Position numbers and translations under genes: made by a program. From positions 1 through 33,519 of the forward strand of contig JAJZKU010000010.1 in NCBI GenBank assembly GCA_021850705.1: a stretch of DNA of 33,519 bases, in the 5' to 3' direction. Shown in pieces: positions 2,710-25,014 of this stretch. The notes beneath the pieces are model-generated. The model was not told where the DNA came from, did no database searches, and was given only the letters and a program-made list of their open reading frames with translations. Numbering within the stretch: position 1 is the first letter of the stretch; every line of letters begins with the position of its first letter. This DNA is from Microcaldota archaeon (GTDB taxonomy: Archaea > Micrarchaeota > Micrarchaeia > Micrarchaeales > CABMGC01).

Positions 2710-4674
2710 TTACCATACTCCTATATACTTCCTCGTTTGCTGAATACCATCCTTCGGAGGGAAGGCCTTGTCAAAGGCAGGGTTGTTCTGAGAAGGTATT
2801 ATCGCCCTGTACTTAGCCGGCGAGTGCGGATCAACTACGATATACATCGTGGTCAATTCCTTGCTATAAACAGATCTCCACACCTGTGCATACGAGATGA
2901 AGAACCTTTGGCTCTGATCGAAGCCGTCAACCACAACATTCCCTGCAGGATCTTTGCCAAGCCTTCGCATCAAAGCATCATATGCGATGTTAACCCCTCC
3001 AAGGTCCGCAAGGTTCTCTCCCATGGTCAGCTTGCCGTTTATGAAGACTCCAGGAAGAATCTCTTTTGAAGAGTACTCCTTTTCCACAAGGTCTGCAAGC
3101 TCATTGAACTTCTTCTCATCATCTGTTGTCCACCAGTCATTAAGATTTCCATCTGCGTCATGCGACCTTCCATTATTGTCGAAGCCATGCGTGATCTCAT
3201 GCCCTATCACTGTTCCTATGCCTCCATAATTGACTGCATAATCAATATTCTTGTCGAAGAACGGTGGCTGCAGTATGCCTGCAGGGAAGACCACTCTGTT
3301 GTCAGAAGGGGAGTTGTAAGCGTTTACATCCTGGGGGTTCATCTGCCACTCCTCTTTGTCAACCGGGAGTCCTACACGCCTGGTATACCTCAAAGTCTCA
3401 AATACTGATGTACGTATGACATTGCCTACATAATCATCAGGGTCTGTCACAAGCCCTTTATAATCGCGGAATCTATCGGGATAGCCGACCATTACCTTCA
3501 TCTTGCTAAGTTTCTCTATCGCCTTAGCCTTTGTCTCATCTCCCATCCATGTAAGAGCCTGTATCCTCTCCTTGAGAACTTCTATAAGGTCCGAAACCAG
3601 CTCCTCTGTCTTCCTCTTGGCTTCCTCATCAAAGTGCTCCTTTACATATATGCTTCCGAGAGCTTCTCCTACGCACGCATTCACCATCCTTATAGCACGC
3701 TTCCATCTGACGCGCTGCTCCTTCTGGCCAAGGAGCTTCCTCCCGAACATGTCAAAATGCTCTTCATCAGCCTGCTTGTGCAGCATTGAAGCATACTCGT
3801 TTATCACATTCCAGTAAAGGTAAATCTTTATCCTATCCAGACTTTCATTAATCATCATAGAATTTATGAAGTCAAGGAAGTCAGGTTGCCTGACTATTAT
3901 GTAAGGAACATCAGGAACCTCAAATCTCTTCATATCCTCTCTAAGCATCAGATTTCCATATCTCTTCTCAAGCTCATCGGTCTTAATCTGATTATAGTTC
4001 TTTATATCGTTGATTACATCTTCGCTCGCCCAGCTTGCCTTTGCAATCTTGGTCTCTATATCAAGAACTGTATCTGCCCACTCTTTGGCTTTGCTCTCCT
4101 CCATGCCATATAATATGAACATCTTCTTCATGTGTTCTAGGTAGTATCTGCGTATCTCTGCCATATCTTCCTTAAGGTAATAATCCCTGTCAGGCAGAGA
4201 CAAGCCTCCTTGATTTATGTAAAAGGCATATACCGAAGACTTTTTGTCATCAGGCGCCACGAAGAATCCGAAGAAAGGATAAATGCCAAGCATATTTAGT
4301 TCAGGAATCGAACGTGCAAGTTCCTCCTTTGAATTTATGCTACTGGCCAATTTCCATGCATTCTCAATAGGCTTGAATTTCAGTTCCTCTATCCTTTCTG
4401 TATTCATGGCAGATGAATAAATATCTCCGACAAGCTTTGCATAAAATCCTGCATCACTCTTCCCAGATGCGCATCTCTCTGCTATCTCATGCAGGTAATC
4501 CAGATTAAGCTCACTCAACTCCCTGAACGCACCTATGGAAGGGAGATCAGGGGGCAGAGGATGCGTGTCTATCCATTTTCCAGCCGCAAACCTGTAGAAA
4601 TCCTCTCTCGGATCTACGGATTTATCCATATACTCTAGAGAAAATCCTATGTTCCTGTTTGTACTATCGCTCAT
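2710..4674 (-). CDS. pepO: M13 (neprilysin/PepO-type) zinc metallopeptidase
   Basis: The 654-residue length is typical for M13. The zinc site is HEITH (H492, E493, H496), followed by GFDNNGRSHDADGNLNDWW. The third ligand motif GENLADLGG lies near residue 553. The substrate-side block NAYNSPSDNRVVFPAGILQPPFF is also intact. The N terminus begins with the family's YMDKSVDPREDFYRFAAGKWI and has no signal peptide or transmembrane anchor, so the enzyme probably works in the cytosol on peptides. The conserved C-terminal Cys of the extracellular eukaryotic relatives is absent (ends KYIGVW), as expected without disulfides. A minus-strand A/T-rich box near 4695-4705 suggests a nearly leaderless transcript. 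Confidence 0.95.
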   Translation of the reverse strand: MSDSTNRNIGFSLEYMDKSVDPREDFYRFAAGKWIDTHPLPPDLPSIGAFRELSELNLDYLHEIAERCASGKSDAGFYAKLVGDIYSSAMNTERIEELKFKPIENAWKLASSINSKEELARSIPELNMLGIYPFFGFFVAPDDKKSSVYAFYINQGGLSLPDRDYYLKEDMAEIRRYYLEHMKKMFILYGMEESKAKEWADTVLDIETKIAKASWASEDVINDIKNYNQIKTDELEKRYGNLMLREDMKRFEVPDVPYIIVRQPDFLDFINSMMINESLDRIKIYLYWNVINEYASMLHKQADEEHFDMFGRKLLGQKEQRVRWKRAIRMVNACVGEALGSIYVKEHFDEEAKRKTEELVSDLIEVLKERIQALTWMGDETKAKAIEKLSKMKVMVGYPDRFRDYKGLVTDPDDYVGNVIRTSVFETLRYTRRVGLPVDKEEWQMNPQDVNAYNSPSDNRVVFPAGILQPPFFDKNIDYAVNYGGIGTVIGHEITHGFDNNGRSHDADGNLNDWWTTDDEKKFNELADLVEKEYSSKEILPGVFINGKLTMGENLADLGGVNIAYDALMRRLGKDPAGNVVVDGFDQSQRFFISYAQVWRSVYSKELTTMYIVVDPHSPAKYRAIIPSQNNPAFDKAFPPKDGIQQTRKYIGVW

Positions 4675-7806: not shown

Positions 7807-8139
7807 ATGGACAAATTGGAGTTTAAGGTATTTTTCTATGCGATAGGAGATTACAGCAGATTCAGCATACTGGAGGCACTTGAAAAGAAGGACCTTAATG
7901 TAAGCGAGATTGTCGAGATTACTGGCATTGAGCAGAGCAACGCCTCCCATCATCTGCACTGCCTGCTTAATTGTGGTTTCGTTAAGGTCAGAAAGGAGGG
8001 AAAGGAGCGCATATACGCAATAAATACAGAAGTAAAGCAGACGGTAAGGAGCATAATAAAGCACATAAACTATTACAAAACGCAGATAATATCATGTGAT
8101 ATTGCAAACAAGGAGTACATTTCAAAGGTGGTTAGATAG
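7807..8139 (+). CDS. ArsR-family winged-helix metalloregulator (MerR-equivalent)
   Basis: The 110-residue protein has an ArsR/SmtB fold: FYAIGDYSRFSILEALEKKDLNVSEIVEITGIEQSNASHHLHCLLNCGFVKVRKEGKERIYAI. SNASHHLHCLLNCG is the recognition helix. Two Cys lie in and after that helix and a third is near the C terminus (IISCDIA), so a Cys-based metal site like that of CmtR-type sensors is possible. The typical ELCVC metal motif is missing. It most likely represses this operon until Hg(II) or a similar soft metal binds. Archaeal mer operons described in Sulfolobus also use an ArsR-type repressor. A perfect anti-SD match (GTGATC) precedes the start. Its stop overlaps the proposed merA start. Confidence 0.8.
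   Translation: MDKLEFKVFFYAIGDYSRFSILEALEKKDLNVSEIVEITGIEQSNASHHLHCLLNCGFVKVRKEGKERIYAINTEVKQTVRSIIKHINYYKTQIISCDIANKEYISKVVR
8127..8138 (+). promoter_or_regulatory. Shine-Dalgarno site and AUA start of merA
   Basis: GGTG at 8127-8130, spacer GTTAG, then ATA at 8136-8138. Genes in this window with ATG starts show the same GGTG plus 5 nt spacing (7240, 6749, 9668, 23506, 25011). This site is what decides the unusual start. Confidence 0.55.
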
Positions 8140-9551
8140 AGGAGTTTGAATATGCGATATTTGGACAGGGTTCTGCAGCATTTGCGGCAGCCATAAAAGC
8201 AAACGAGCTTGGAATCAAGACGGTAATGATAGGCCATGGTGCAACTGAAGGTGCAGTACTGGGAGGAACATGCATAAATGTCGGGTGTGTACCAAGCAAG
8301 AGGCTGATAACAGTAAGTACGTTCTTAGAGGAACTAAGAAAAAGAAGATATTCGGGACTGCGATACGAGATTGGAAAGATTGAATACGGGAAGATAGTCG
8401 CAGAGAAGGACAAACTGGTAGATGAGTTAAGAGGCCAGAAGTATACAGATGTACTGGGTGCGCTTGAGAACATAACCTTCATGGACAAATTAGGCAGATT
8501 CGAAGATGCGAATACTATTATTGCAGGGAAAAAAGAGGTGCATTCGAAAAATACACTTATAGCGACAGGTGCAAGAGCATCTGTCCCGAAGATCAAGGGG
8601 ATAGAAAAGGCAAGATACCTTACAAATGAAGAAGCTTTGTCAATGAAAGAGCTTCCGGAATCATTGATAGTAGTAGGCGGGAGGGCGCTGGGCCTTGAAT
8701 TCACACAGCTATTTGCAAGGCTCGGTGTCAGAGTCACATTGCTCCAGAGAAGCAACAGGATAATACCAAACTGGGAGCCTGAGATAGGAAACTATATGAC
8801 AGAGTATATGGATGAGGATGGGATCAAGATAGTTACCAGTGCAGAATTAGTCAGTATAGATTCGGGAAAAAGGTCAACGAGCATAACTGCGAGAGTCAAT
8901 GGAAAGGAGCAGGTCTTCGAAGCGCAGGAGATACTCTTTGCAACCGGAAGGACGGCAAACATAGAAGAACTTAACCTTAATTCCGCAGGCGTGAAGCTGA
9001 ATGAGAGGAACTTCATAAAAGTTGACAAAGGGCTAAAGACCACCGCAGGGAACATATATGCTGCAGGGGATGTTACTGGAGAGCCGATGCTCGAGACGCT
9101 TGCTGCAAAAGAGGGCAATATTGCAACATCAAACATCTTTGAGAAGGCAAATAAGACCATAAACCTGAATGAGGTGCCGAGTGCGATATTCACATACCCT
9201 GAAGCTGCAATGGTAGGCATGACTGAAGAGCAGGTTATAAAAAACAAAATAAGGTGCAGCTGCAGCCCTCTAGAGTTGCGATTCGTAGCAAAGTCAGCGA
9301 TAATAGGAGATACCAGGGGTCTGGTAAAGATAGTGATAGACCATAAGACAAAGAAGATATTGGGAGTGCACATACTTGCCCCACATGCGGCAGAGCTGAT
9401 ACACGAAGGGGCGCTTGCGGTCAAATTCGGCCTTACTATAGATGACCTAATAGACACTGTGCACGTATTCCCAACGCTGAGCGAGAGCCTGAAGCTTGCG
9501 GCAATGGCTTTCTACCAGGACATCTCCAAGCTCAGTTGCTGTACAGTATAA
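8136..9551 (+). CDS. merA: Mercuric reductase MerA, probable AUA start
   Basis: MerA reduces Hg(II) to volatile Hg(0) using NADPH and FAD. The 471-residue product has the FAD loop FGQGSAAFAAA (G10, G12), the redox pair GGTCINVGCVPSK (C46, C51), the NADPH-binding region (IVVGGRALGLEFTQLFARLG), AAGDVTGEPML for the second FAD contact, and the C-terminal vicinal pair C468-C469 (LSCCTV) that delivers Hg(II) in MerA. It lacks an N-terminal NmerA domain, like many core MerA proteins. The first ATG in frame (8226) would delete the FAD loop. Between the in-frame stop (8133) and 8226 there is no ATG, GTG or TTG. AUA at 8136 has GGTG 5 nt upstream and overlaps the regulator's stop as ATAG. Confidence 0.88.
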   Translation: MEEFEYAIFGQGSAAFAAAIKANELGIKTVMIGHGATEGAVLGGTCINVGCVPSKRLITVSTFLEELRKRRYSGLRYEIGKIEYGKIVAEKDKLVDELRGQKYTDVLGALENITFMDKLGRFEDANTIIAGKKEVHSKNTLIATGARASVPKIKGIEKARYLTNEEALSMKELPESLIVVGGRALGLEFTQLFARLGVRVTLLQRSNRIIPNWEPEIGNYMTEYMDEDGIKIVTSAELVSIDSGKRSTSITARVNGKEQVFEAQEILFATGRTANIEELNLNSAGVKLNERNFIKVDKGLKTTAGNIYAAGDVTGEPMLETLAAKEGNIATSNIFEKANKTINLNEVPSAIFTYPEAAMVGMTEEQVIKNKIRCSCSPLELRFVAKSAIIGDTRGLVKIVIDHKTKKILGVHILAPHAAELIHEGALAVKFGLTIDDLIDTVHVFPTLSESLKLAAMAFYQDISKLSCCTV

Positions 9552-14802: not shown

Positions 14803-16215
14803 TTATCTGTTTCCATTTATCATTTCCTTTAGTTTTTCAGGATTATAATTGTAATGAGAGACAAGTATCTCATACTGCCTTGTCTTTATCTTATCAGAAA
14901 ATCTGCTGTTAACAGAACCTACTATTATGTCCGTTACTACTATCTCATATATCCTGGCGCCTCCTGTATCTTTGATAAGTCGTTCTGCAATTGCCTCCGG
15001 GTTCTGATCTTTGAATACATGTGCCATCAGCAAGACTCCTTTCGGGGACATTATATCGCATGCGAACGAGTAGGTGTCAACCTGCAGGTCATTCTCTTTT
15101 ATGAGATCAAGCATAAATCTCTCTCTGCCCTTTAACCAGCTATCTATATTTATAATATTCAGTATGAACAGCGCATCAAACCTTGATGACAGGTTCCTCA
15201 TATTCACAGTAGCCCTCTTTATTATTCCCCTGTCGATAAGCCTGTGATAAGCGTAATTGGATCTTCCCCTTTCTGTATGAATCTCCCTGTCGATAGAGGC
15301 GAAGTCCGCAGCAGCATTCTTGTTCATTGCCATCAATACATTATATTCCACTTCTGTTATCTGGTCATGCTCTGGTCTCGGCTTCTCCCTTGTTCTCTTC
15401 CATACCTTCTCCTTCAATACCTCGAAGAACTCCTTTCTAAGCGGTATGAAACCCAATCCGCTGAAATACGCCGGAGACATTGTCCATTCAATATCATAAG
15501 AGGATAAAACCTCGCGTGTGAAGTCGTACAGTGCGCCTCTTGCATTGCTGTTAGATTCTGCAACAAGAAGAACTACTATGTCATATTCGCCTTTTGTTAT
15601 CATGGCTGCCTGAACATAAGGATACTTCTCAAGCTCCTCCTTCATCTGATTAAGCACAGGCTTTTTATTGAGGAACTTTCCAAAAGCGACATAATCTACA
15701 TATCCAAACTTCTCTATGTCTATCTCCAGCACATATTCCATATCATATCTTCTCTCAAGGTTTCTCAGATGATATGCCACAGTGGTCTCTTTTATCCCAG
15801 TTATCTTTACAAGCTCAGGTATCGTCTTCCTCGCATCCATACTTAACGCCCTGAGTATATCACGCTCATGCCTTTCCGTCTCCCTTTTCCTTATGCCTTC
15901 ATCTACTATTTTCGTCTCAGCTTCCTTCTGGGAATCCTGCAGAGCCGAAAGCCTCTCCCTGTTCTCTTTTTCCATCTCCTTTAGTTCTTTTGTACGTTCA
16001 TCCCTGTGCTCAGCAGGTATGAACATTCCATCATCTGTGAACCATCCCAGATACTTCGTAACCTTATCTGATCTGCCCTTCTCTTTGTTATACACGCTTG
16101 TAGCCTGGAAGAGCCTGTACCTTCCACGCAGCATCTTTGCCTCAACATAATGGCCATACTCCTTGCGTATGCGTTCAACGGCTCTTTCTATGTTCTCGGG
16201 CAGTTTCTTGGGCAG
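14803..16215 (-). CDS. Large Lrp/AsnC-like transcription regulator, probable CUG start
   Basis: The 470-residue protein has two winged-helix units. The first (about residues 120-165: ERDILRALSMDARKTIPELVKITGIKETTVAYHLRNLERR) is AsnC-like and is followed by an Lrp ligand-type fold (VDYVAFGKFLNKKPVL...YDIVVLLVAESNSN). The second unit is TEVEYNVLMAMNKNAAADFASIDREIHTERGRSNYAYHRLIDRGII, again followed by a sensor-like domain. The annotated-style ATG at 16134 would begin inside a conserved N-terminal block. The frame stays open upstream (PKKLPENIERAVERIRKEYGHYVEAK) with no ATG, GTG or TTG before the in-frame TGA. CTG at 16215 has GGTG exactly 5 nt upstream, and a TATA box (16247-16257) gives a 13-nt leader. 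It probably autoregulates or controls neighbours; ligand unknown. Confidence 0.75.
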   Translation of the reverse strand: MPKKLPENIERAVERIRKEYGHYVEAKMLRGRYRLFQATSVYNKEKGRSDKVTKYLGWFTDDGMFIPAEHRDERTKELKEMEKENRERLSALQDSQKEAETKIVDEGIRKRETERHERDILRALSMDARKTIPELVKITGIKETTVAYHLRNLERRYDMEYVLEIDIEKFGYVDYVAFGKFLNKKPVLNQMKEELEKYPYVQAAMITKGEYDIVVLLVAESNSNARGALYDFTREVLSSYDIEWTMSPAYFSGLGFIPLRKEFFEVLKEKVWKRTREKPRPEHDQITEVEYNVLMAMNKNAAADFASIDREIHTERGRSNYAYHRLIDRGIIKRATVNMRNLSSRFDALFILNIINIDSWLKGRERFMLDLIKENDLQVDTYSFACDIMSPKGVLLMAHVFKDQNPEAIAERLIKDTGGARIYEIVVTDIIVGSVNSRFSDKIKTRQYEILVSHYNYNPEKLKEMINGNR

Positions 16216-16246
16216 ATATCCACCACATAAGTAATGACAGCTTCAG

Positions 16247-16588: not shown

Positions 16589-17467
16589 ATGACAACGAAG
16601 AGACATGACCATGATAATGGCGAAAAGATTACGGAGCAGACACCAAGACCAACAAACATGCACGGAGCCCACGCTAGGCAACCGATGTCAGTGGAGCGCC
16701 ATACAATACAGTTCTTAAAGGATAAGAATGCAGATTTGGAAGCAAAAGTCAAGAAACTGGAAAATGATAAACACGAATTGATTAAGGCACTAGCAGTTGC
16801 ATCAAGGATATCCCTTGAAAATGACGAGCTCAAGAAGAAAAATGAGGCTCTGGAAAGATTCACACTTGACGGGCTAACTGGTCTGGGAAGAGTTGAGTTG
16901 TTCAACAATAAGGGTTTTCCCGAGGCGTTTGGCAATGCAATGAGGTACGATCTTAACCTTGCCATTATAATAATAGACCTTAATGACCTCAAGAAGACCA
17001 ATGATATTGATAGTTACGAGGCAGGTAACAGGCTGCTCCGCAAAACTGCAGAAGTAATAAAAGAGACGACAAGAGTCAACGATTCAAAGTACAAATTAGA
17101 AGCAGGGTACAGGTGGGGCGGAGACGAATTCATAATAATTGCAAACATACCTGATGGCAATTCAAAAGAAGTCGATTCAAGTGCAAAGAGTATACTGCGC
17201 AGGCTTGAAGATGCTCTGGTTGCAAACGGTGTTAACTGTTCAATAGGAGCATGCGTAATGGCTCCAAAAAGATCCATGCCTGTTGATGAGGACAAAGGTT
17301 CAAGGATAACCTATATGGAAAAGCCCACAGTTGAGCACGAGATTAAACTATCTCGCGGAGATGTAGGCATGATAAGGGACGCAATGTTTAAAAGCGCAGA
17401 GAAAGAGATGAAAAAGGACAAGTCCCACAAGAAAGGGAAGCATATTTCAACTCTGAAGCGCGAGTGA
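16589..17467 (+). CDS. GGDEF-domain protein (putative diguanylate cyclase)
   Basis: The 292-residue protein has an intact GGDEF motif at residues 177-181 (YRWGGDEFIII). The family's earlier blocks are also present: DGLTGLGRVELFNNKGF, then LAIIIIDLNDLKKTNDIDSYEAGNRLLRKTAEVI, which supplies the metal-binding Asp and the LKKTND equivalent of FKxxND. Active enzymes of this family make cyclic di-GMP from two GTP. No RxxD inhibitory site is seen before GGDEF. The N terminus is His-rich and disordered, then a coiled coil (residues 40-90); no sensor or membrane domain is present, and the C terminus is a Lys-rich tail. GGDEF proteins are rare in archaea, so activity needs testing. The cobalamin gene follows 4 nt later. 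Confidence 0.85.
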   Translation: MTTKRHDHDNGEKITEQTPRPTNMHGAHARQPMSVERHTIQFLKDKNADLEAKVKKLENDKHELIKALAVASRISLENDELKKKNEALERFTLDGLTGLGRVELFNNKGFPEAFGNAMRYDLNLAIIIIDLNDLKKTNDIDSYEAGNRLLRKTAEVIKETTRVNDSKYKLEAGYRWGGDEFIIIANIPDGNSKEVDSSAKSILRRLEDALVANGVNCSIGACVMAPKRSMPVDEDKGSRITYMEKPTVEHEIKLSRGDVGMIRDAMFKSAEKEMKKDKSHKKGKHISTLKRE

Positions 17468-23505: not shown

Positions 23506-25014
23506 ATGAGAAGGTCAGAGATACTGTCTACAGCAATAGTTATCCTAGCTCTACTGCTCTTCATGGCAGCTTATATGAACTCGGTTCAGCCTGGGATAAG
23601 CGACACCAATCCTTCAACATACGTAATAATACCTATCCTGATGCTTCCCATATTCTTCATATTTAAACTCAAGGAGAAGATACTTCCTGAAGTAAAGAGA
23701 AAAGATATAGCAATAGGTGTGCTTCTTTCCATAATCGGCATAATCGCTACTGCATACATGAAATATGCGCTCTCATTCGAATTCTCTGCTTTTGGAATCG
23801 GCTTTCTTATGCTCCCGGTATTCGTAGCTTCATTCTCAATACTTGCATACGGCATAAAAAACATGAAGAGATTTGTCTCAGTTATAATATATTCAATATT
23901 CACCTCCCCTATCGTTCTTCTACCTGTACTTCTGCAGAATCAGAATTTCACCGCAATAAACAGCACGATAGTATACTGGATAGAAAAACTGTTTATATCC
24001 GGACTAAAATTCTCCCCTCCGATAACCATAACGCTGAACAACGTGAGTATAGGCATTGGCCAGACCTGCGTAGGTCTTGGCGCAATACTCGGCCTTCTCT
24101 TCATGCTGATTCCATTGGCATACTTCTACAACGGTACAAACAAGGGCAAAATGAAGTGGGTAATATCAGGAATAGTGCTGCTGCTCATATTGAACATAGC
24201 CCGCATGTCAATAATAACTTCACTGTGGTTTGCCACAGGCCCTTCACAGACTCTTCTTACAATACATCTATTCATAGGAGTGCTCCTTTTCTATCTCACT
24301 CTTATAATAATGATACTTGCCGCGCGCAAGTTCGGCCTTGAAATCCCCCATTTCAATAATGCCAAAGGCAAAAAGATCAAGGAGTATTCATATGCTCTTG
24401 CAGCAGCAGTTGTAATTGGCATAATCTATTACGCTATATTCAGTTACGGGAATTCATACATGTCTCCAATGAACCTTACTATAAATCCAAGCTTCAACTT
24501 TACCCAAAATTACACTGTGCAATACTTCAACAACGCCATCAAGATGAAAAACTACACAAGCGAAATACTGATATATCAAAATAATACTGCGGTAACATTA
24601 TACCTGTATAACAAGACGACAACGGACAAGAACGTAACTCTTGTAATACTTACAAAGCCCTACGAGAACCCTATCCAGAATCTGCTGAATAATTCCACCT
24701 CTACGGAGTCATTCACCTTCATGAACAGTTCAGGATACATAACCAATTATTATCAGTTCTCTTCAAGCGGATCACAACTCTCCGTATTTGAAAGAAGCGA
24801 AGTATTCCAGATAAGCCAATACAATTACACTGAGATAAAAGAGTATGCCATAATTCCAAACGGATTATTCTCCAAGATAAACGTTCAAAACTGCTATCCG
24901 ACAGACTGGCACTCCTACCTCCTGAATCTATTCAATCCTGCCTTATACAATTCTACGGAGCAGGCTCAGATGAATAACAGATACTGCCTATATAATTCTC
25001 TGGTGTCACGATGA
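23506..25014 (+). CDS. Archaeosortase/exosortase-family transpeptidase with C-terminal ectodomain
   Basis: The 502-residue protein has eight or so membrane helices in residues 1-315. It shows the exosortase triad: C188 in IGQTCVGLGAILGLLFMLIP, R233 in LNIARMSII and H254 in TIHLFIGVLLFYL. Archaeosortases cut a C-terminal sorting signal and attach surface proteins to lipid. About 190 residues after the last helix form an extracellular domain with many N-glycosylation sequons (NxT/S) and few Cys. Such a long C-terminal domain is unusual for simple archaeosortases. No protein here has an obvious PGF- or PEF-type signal, so the substrate is unknown. GGTG lies 5 nt before the ATG. The next gene overlaps by 4 nt (ATGA). 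Confidence 0.85.
   Translation: MRRSEILSTAIVILALLLFMAAYMNSVQPGISDTNPSTYVIIPILMLPIFFIFKLKEKILPEVKRKDIAIGVLLSIIGIIATAYMKYALSFEFSAFGIGFLMLPVFVASFSILAYGIKNMKRFVSVIIYSIFTSPIVLLPVLLQNQNFTAINSTIVYWIEKLFISGLKFSPPITITLNNVSIGIGQTCVGLGAILGLLFMLIPLAYFYNGTNKGKMKWVISGIVLLLILNIARMSIITSLWFATGPSQTLLTIHLFIGVLLFYLTLIIMILAARKFGLEIPHFNNAKGKKIKEYSYALAAAVVIGIIYYAIFSYGNSYMSPMNLTINPSFNFTQNYTVQYFNNAIKMKNYTSEILIYQNNTAVTLYLYNKTTTDKNVTLVILTKPYENPIQNLLNNSTSTESFTFMNSSGYITNYYQFSSSGSQLSVFERSEVFQISQYNYTEIKEYAIIPNGLFSKINVQNCYPTDWHSYLLNLFNPALYNSTEQAQMNNRYCLYNSLVSR

Follow-up and report, generated by a model that had tools for sequence, protein, structure and literature searches.

Predicted initiation at a CTG codon in an Lrp-like regulator gene and at recurrent near-cognate codons in an order of Micrarchaeota

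The 33,519-nt stretch of DNA analysed here (hereinafter the window) belongs to a Micrarchaeota genome (G000; 647-kb assembly, 79% complete) and carries on its minus strand a gene for a winged-helix regulator that, judged by comparison with its homologues, is very probably translated from a CTG codon at 16215-16213. CTG, ATA, ATT and ATC codons behind a precisely spaced Shine-Dalgarno (SD) core recur at the starts of further genes in related genomes. The common gene finders allow only ATG, GTG and TTG as start codons, and this Micrarchaeota lineage appears to tolerate codons outside their range. On balance we favour, with some reservation, a reading in which start-codon discrimination is relaxed across the order: AUA, AUU, AUC and CUG, and perhaps ACG and GUA, would be regular starts of SD-led genes and long kept as such in RNase HII, either through a changed initiation apparatus or through strict SD spacing in place of proofreading of the codon.

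The regulator gene and its start position

The regulator frame opens after a TGA and extends from stop to stop over 14803-16242. Our reading of the open reading frame agrees with the original prediction, made from the window alone, in finding no ATG, GTG or TTG between this TGA and an ATG at 16134, and therefore none between the upstream stop and the conserved protein start. Counted from the CTG, which is expected to be read as Met (residue 1), the gene occupies 14803-16215 and encodes a protein of 470 aa. The GGTG SD core at 16224-16221 lies exactly 5 nt before the CTG, as had been predicted, and this distance is the optimum for the genome. A TATA-like TTTAAATA at 16255-16248 on the same strand, retained in the orthologues and most paralogues, is a putative promoter element. 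The TATA box of the original prediction is thus present, but its transcript start 13 nt upstream of the CTG is not reproduced: by consensus only, transcription is predicted to start near 16226, ~10 nt 5′ of the CTG.

The codon aligned to the regulator CTG in the four same-genus orthologues is CTG in two (G001 and G004), ATC in G002 and TTG in G005, and GGTG stands at the 5-nt distance before it in all four. At this position GTG occurs in three regulator paralogues and TTG in two, the other arrangement being an adjacent ATG/TTG pair; GGTG precedes each of these. In a more distant paralogue (L041), a TTG adjoins the start position and GGTG is absent. Most of about 20 distant Micrarchaeota homologues (~30% identity) align an ATG with the CTG, and a TATA-like box often lies shortly 5′ of it. 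The CTG is therefore homologous to the start codons of its relatives, and this shared position in the orthologues, most paralogues and most distant homologues supports the predicted start at CUG. In this genus, SD-led non-AUG starts seem to have taken the place of an AUG start of the regulator.

Among the five genus members, regulator codons 2-27 differ almost only at third positions, with 2, 1 and 14 changes at codon positions 1, 2 and 3 between G000 and G002, and 3, 0 and 12 between G000 and G005; the 27 codons that follow the ATG behave alike. This third-position type of change, together with the homologous start positions, argues that the 27-codon N-terminal segment (16135-16215), which NTG-only gene calling misses, is translated and that its natural beginning is the CTG. 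The description of these codons as protein-like and probably conserved is thereby borne out. Orthologues lacking the extension, named at the outset as evidence that would count against it, did not appear: the four same-genus orthologues and the paralogues with their 5′ end covered all share it.

Counted from the CTG, residues 114-154 match the HTH_24 winged helix above its cut-off; in the longer frame used for the search, these are residues 123-163. The similarity to LrpA and PH1519, both of the Lrp/AsnC family, comprises the winged helix and the region that follows it and is limited to residues 114-224. LrpA, LysM and AsnC models give 29-36 bits against NCBIfam cut-offs of 180-250, and by these models the regulator is Lrp-like but not a member of Lrp/AsnC. 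The earlier Lrp-like label is accordingly fair for residues ~114-224 and leaves the rest of the protein uncovered; compared with Lrp/AsnC, the 470-aa regulator has ~110 extra N-terminal residues and an unmatched second half. Its conserved neighbour in the genus is a divergent gene for a GGDEF-domain protein with an intact WGGDEF motif (16589-17467, plus strand), a class of protein that to our knowledge is unusual in archaea.

Apparent near-cognate starts in other genes and genomes

A second such gene in the window is merA (8136-9551, plus strand), which encodes mercuric reductase. It was cited in the original prediction as an independent case at the same spacing, and its apparent ATA start at 8136 indeed follows GGTG-GTTAG, with an in-frame TAG directly preceding the ATA. 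The match to TIGR02053 begins at residue 5, which corresponds to profile position 2, and the protein was also aligned to solved MerA. Elsewhere, the window encodes an M13 peptidase (2710-4674, minus strand) and an exosortase-like membrane protein (23506-25014, plus strand). Apparent near-cognate starts are not confined to the two genes first named, the regulator and merA; more genes and several codons are involved across the order.

The genome survey covered 627 kb of G000 and, as with every comparison genome, a part of G004, two relatives that are not independent, with hexamer-based gene finding. GGTG lies exactly 5 nt before an NTG start in 28 of 527 G000 genes, against 0-11 at any other spacing, which makes this arrangement (hereinafter GGTG-5) the sharp SD optimum of the genome. 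Genes with at least 10 coding-like codons before any NTG number 37 in G000 and 26 in G004. Nine of the 37 have GGTG-N5 before CTG, ATA, ATT, ATC or ACG, whereas in-phase control spacings average 1.4 (Poisson P ~2e-5, relatedness ignored); in G004, six of the 26 have such a site, compared with 1.0. When the gene filter is dropped, CTG alone shows a modest enrichment at GGTG-5 (5 vs ~1), and ATG, TTG and GTG still dominate these sites.

The G000/G004 gene pairs checked include FEN1 (ATA), PMM (CTG) and three further CTG genes behind GGTG-5. In the pair of PAC2-like genes, the CTG follows GTGAT at a matching spacing, and one gene behind GGTG-5 has ATA in G000 and ATG in G004, a direct swap. The PMM start codons among genus members are CTG, CTG, CTG, TTG and GTG. 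Some starts are uncertain (UMP kinase with ACG, a topoisomerase, and a C19 gene with GTA), the SD being weak or the codon two changes away from ATG. The GTA belongs to a predicted gene start on G000 C19 (L062; plus strand, 0-based 5624) and is conserved behind GGTG-5 on G004 C22; it too is uncertain.

Two housekeeping genes were followed across orthologues. All five genus members with a FEN1 gene (L080:10698-11753, minus strand, and L133-L136) show ATA immediately behind an in-frame stop; in other genera ATG or TTG occupies this position. The 48 RNase HII loci of the order (L162-L190 and L215-L234 among the loci compared) have at the start position ATA in 17, ATT in 14, ATC in 9, ATG in 6, GTT in 1 and another codon in 1; ATA, ATT or ATC thus stands there in 40 of 48. 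The numbering agrees with that of a solved RNase HII, residue 3 corresponding to residue 3. In 29 of the 48 loci, the codons from the upstream stop to the catalytic Asp include no NTG; in some, GTG or TTG occurs a few codons from the start position. GGTG precedes this position by 5 nt in most of the loci. By contrast, outside the order but within the same class, ATG is at or next to the position in 12 of 13 loci and GGTG-5 is found in none of the 13 (Fisher P ~1e-7 for order versus outside, relatedness ignored).

In a genome outside the order (G074 C1, joined from L275-L294), candidate ATA and ACG starts lie behind GGTG-5 at reverse-strand positions 209720 and 206927. Since this outside genome has two candidates, the trait may predate the order.

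Initiation apparatus and alternative explanations

The accepted view is that aIF1 polices start selection in archaea. Relatives of G000 have both aIF1 and aIF1A, with aIF1 also in those that share the CTG, and the aIF1 sequences look ordinary by eye. aIF1 gave no match in the 79%-complete G000 assembly, and the sequence examined did not yield the 16S 3′ end. Loss of aIF1 was considered as a cause and rejected, as relatives with the CTG retain the factor; with aIF1A present in relatives as well, no lost factor explains the near-cognate starts. An altered initiator tRNA was likewise rejected, the only initiator tRNA found in G000 having a standard CCGGG-CTCATAA-CCCGG anticodon arm.

Comparison of homologous sequences establishes, at its own level, the start position, the SD spacing, the coding character of the extension and the recurrence across genes and genomes. 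In the mechanism that we propose, the regulator mRNA would have a short leader and be translated from the CUG at 16215. Pairing of its GGUG core with the 16S 3′ end, at the fixed 5-nt distance from the CUG, would bring this codon into the P site. There Met-tRNAi of the ordinary kind, with anticodon CAU, would accept it with one mismatch to give a Met-PKKLPENIER... protein. Synthesis would thus begin with Met, need no special factor and presumably yield little protein. The order appears to use such SD-positioned near-cognate initiation, at CUG, AUA, AUU, AUC and perhaps ACG, for a minority of its genes, whose translation it probably keeps low, in line with the bacterial cases. The reported discrimination of aIF1 from other archaea against non-canonical starts (PMC6237735) counts against this mechanism; either strict spacing overrides aIF1, or Micrarchaeota aIF1 is laxer.

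Translation of the regulator from the ATG at 16134-16132, with the 27 upstream codons untranslated, would use the first canonical start of the frame, but we rejected this start as highly improbable: the ATG lies 27 codons inside a conserved protein and lacks GGTG at the preferred spacing, the upstream codons evolve in the manner of protein, and the ~30%-identity homologues include the segment and begin upstream of it with ATG. Equally hard to credit is access to the extension by frameshift from an out-of-frame ATG at 16229 or by readthrough past the TGA. Although an out-of-frame ATG lies just 5′ of or overlaps the GGTG in G000, G001 and G004, it is absent from G002, G005 and the paralogues, and the predicted transcript start falls at or after it; moreover, the CTG position, where GGTG-5 is kept, is also where similarity between the proteins sets in. 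All genomes are apparently draft assemblies and many are MAGs, so assembly or sequencing errors might have turned ATG or another NTG into CTG and ATH. This seems the least credible explanation, the same non-NTG codon appearing in independent assemblies amid synonymous divergence (CTG three times, FEN1 ATA five times, RNase HII AUH 40 times).

Also unlikely, but deserving more weight than the foregoing explanations, is a change in the initiator tRNA or in an initiation factor that puts near-cognate codons on a par with AUG, so that they are not weak starts of low expression. The use of several near-cognate codons, in FEN1 and RNase HII among other genes, would be compatible with it; the standard anticodon arm of the only initiator tRNA found, the ordinary look of aIF1 and the dominance of ATG, TTG and GTG at GGTG-5 sites argue against it.

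Implications and comparison with known systems

Where AUA, AUU, AUC and CUG starts are kept in core genes, the annotated proteins of the lineage lack part or all of the N-terminus; NTG-only annotation would strip RNase HII of its catalytic motif. The lineage offers a natural system for testing strict SD spacing as a substitute for codon matching, and suggests that weak start codons in archaea act as setters of low protein levels.

Near-cognate initiation itself is already known, and the order-wide conserved set is what is new: our searches of the open-access literature turned up neither an account of such starts in Micrarchaeota or DPANN nor an archaeal AUH/CUG set conserved across an order. 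A 2020 review of archaeal initiation names, in the parts consulted, AUG, GUG and UUG as start codons (PMC7531240), compared with AUA, AUU, AUC and CUG in the Micrarchaeota order here; SD-led initiation as described in those parts has in common with our cases the placement by SD-anti-SD pairing, the initiator tRNA and the aIF1 family. Of 61,358 ancestral AUG starts in tight prokaryote groups, 2 became CUG and 1 became AUU, and the SD matters more for non-AUG starts (PMC5622118). The near-cognate codons are the same as ours, but there they are rare changes and here a conserved, recurrent class.

Bacterial infC has an AUU start. Streptomyces sigR has a GTC start (PMC5472188). Both resemble the present cases in that a natural start other than AUG, GUG or UUG is conserved in one gene and tied to low or regulated translation. 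However, infC and sigR are single bacterial genes read with IF3, whereas here several genes and codons are involved in an archaeal order with aIF1, aIF1A and aIF2, and the product of the regulator gene, in contrast to that of autoregulated infC, is of DNA-binding type and not an initiation factor.
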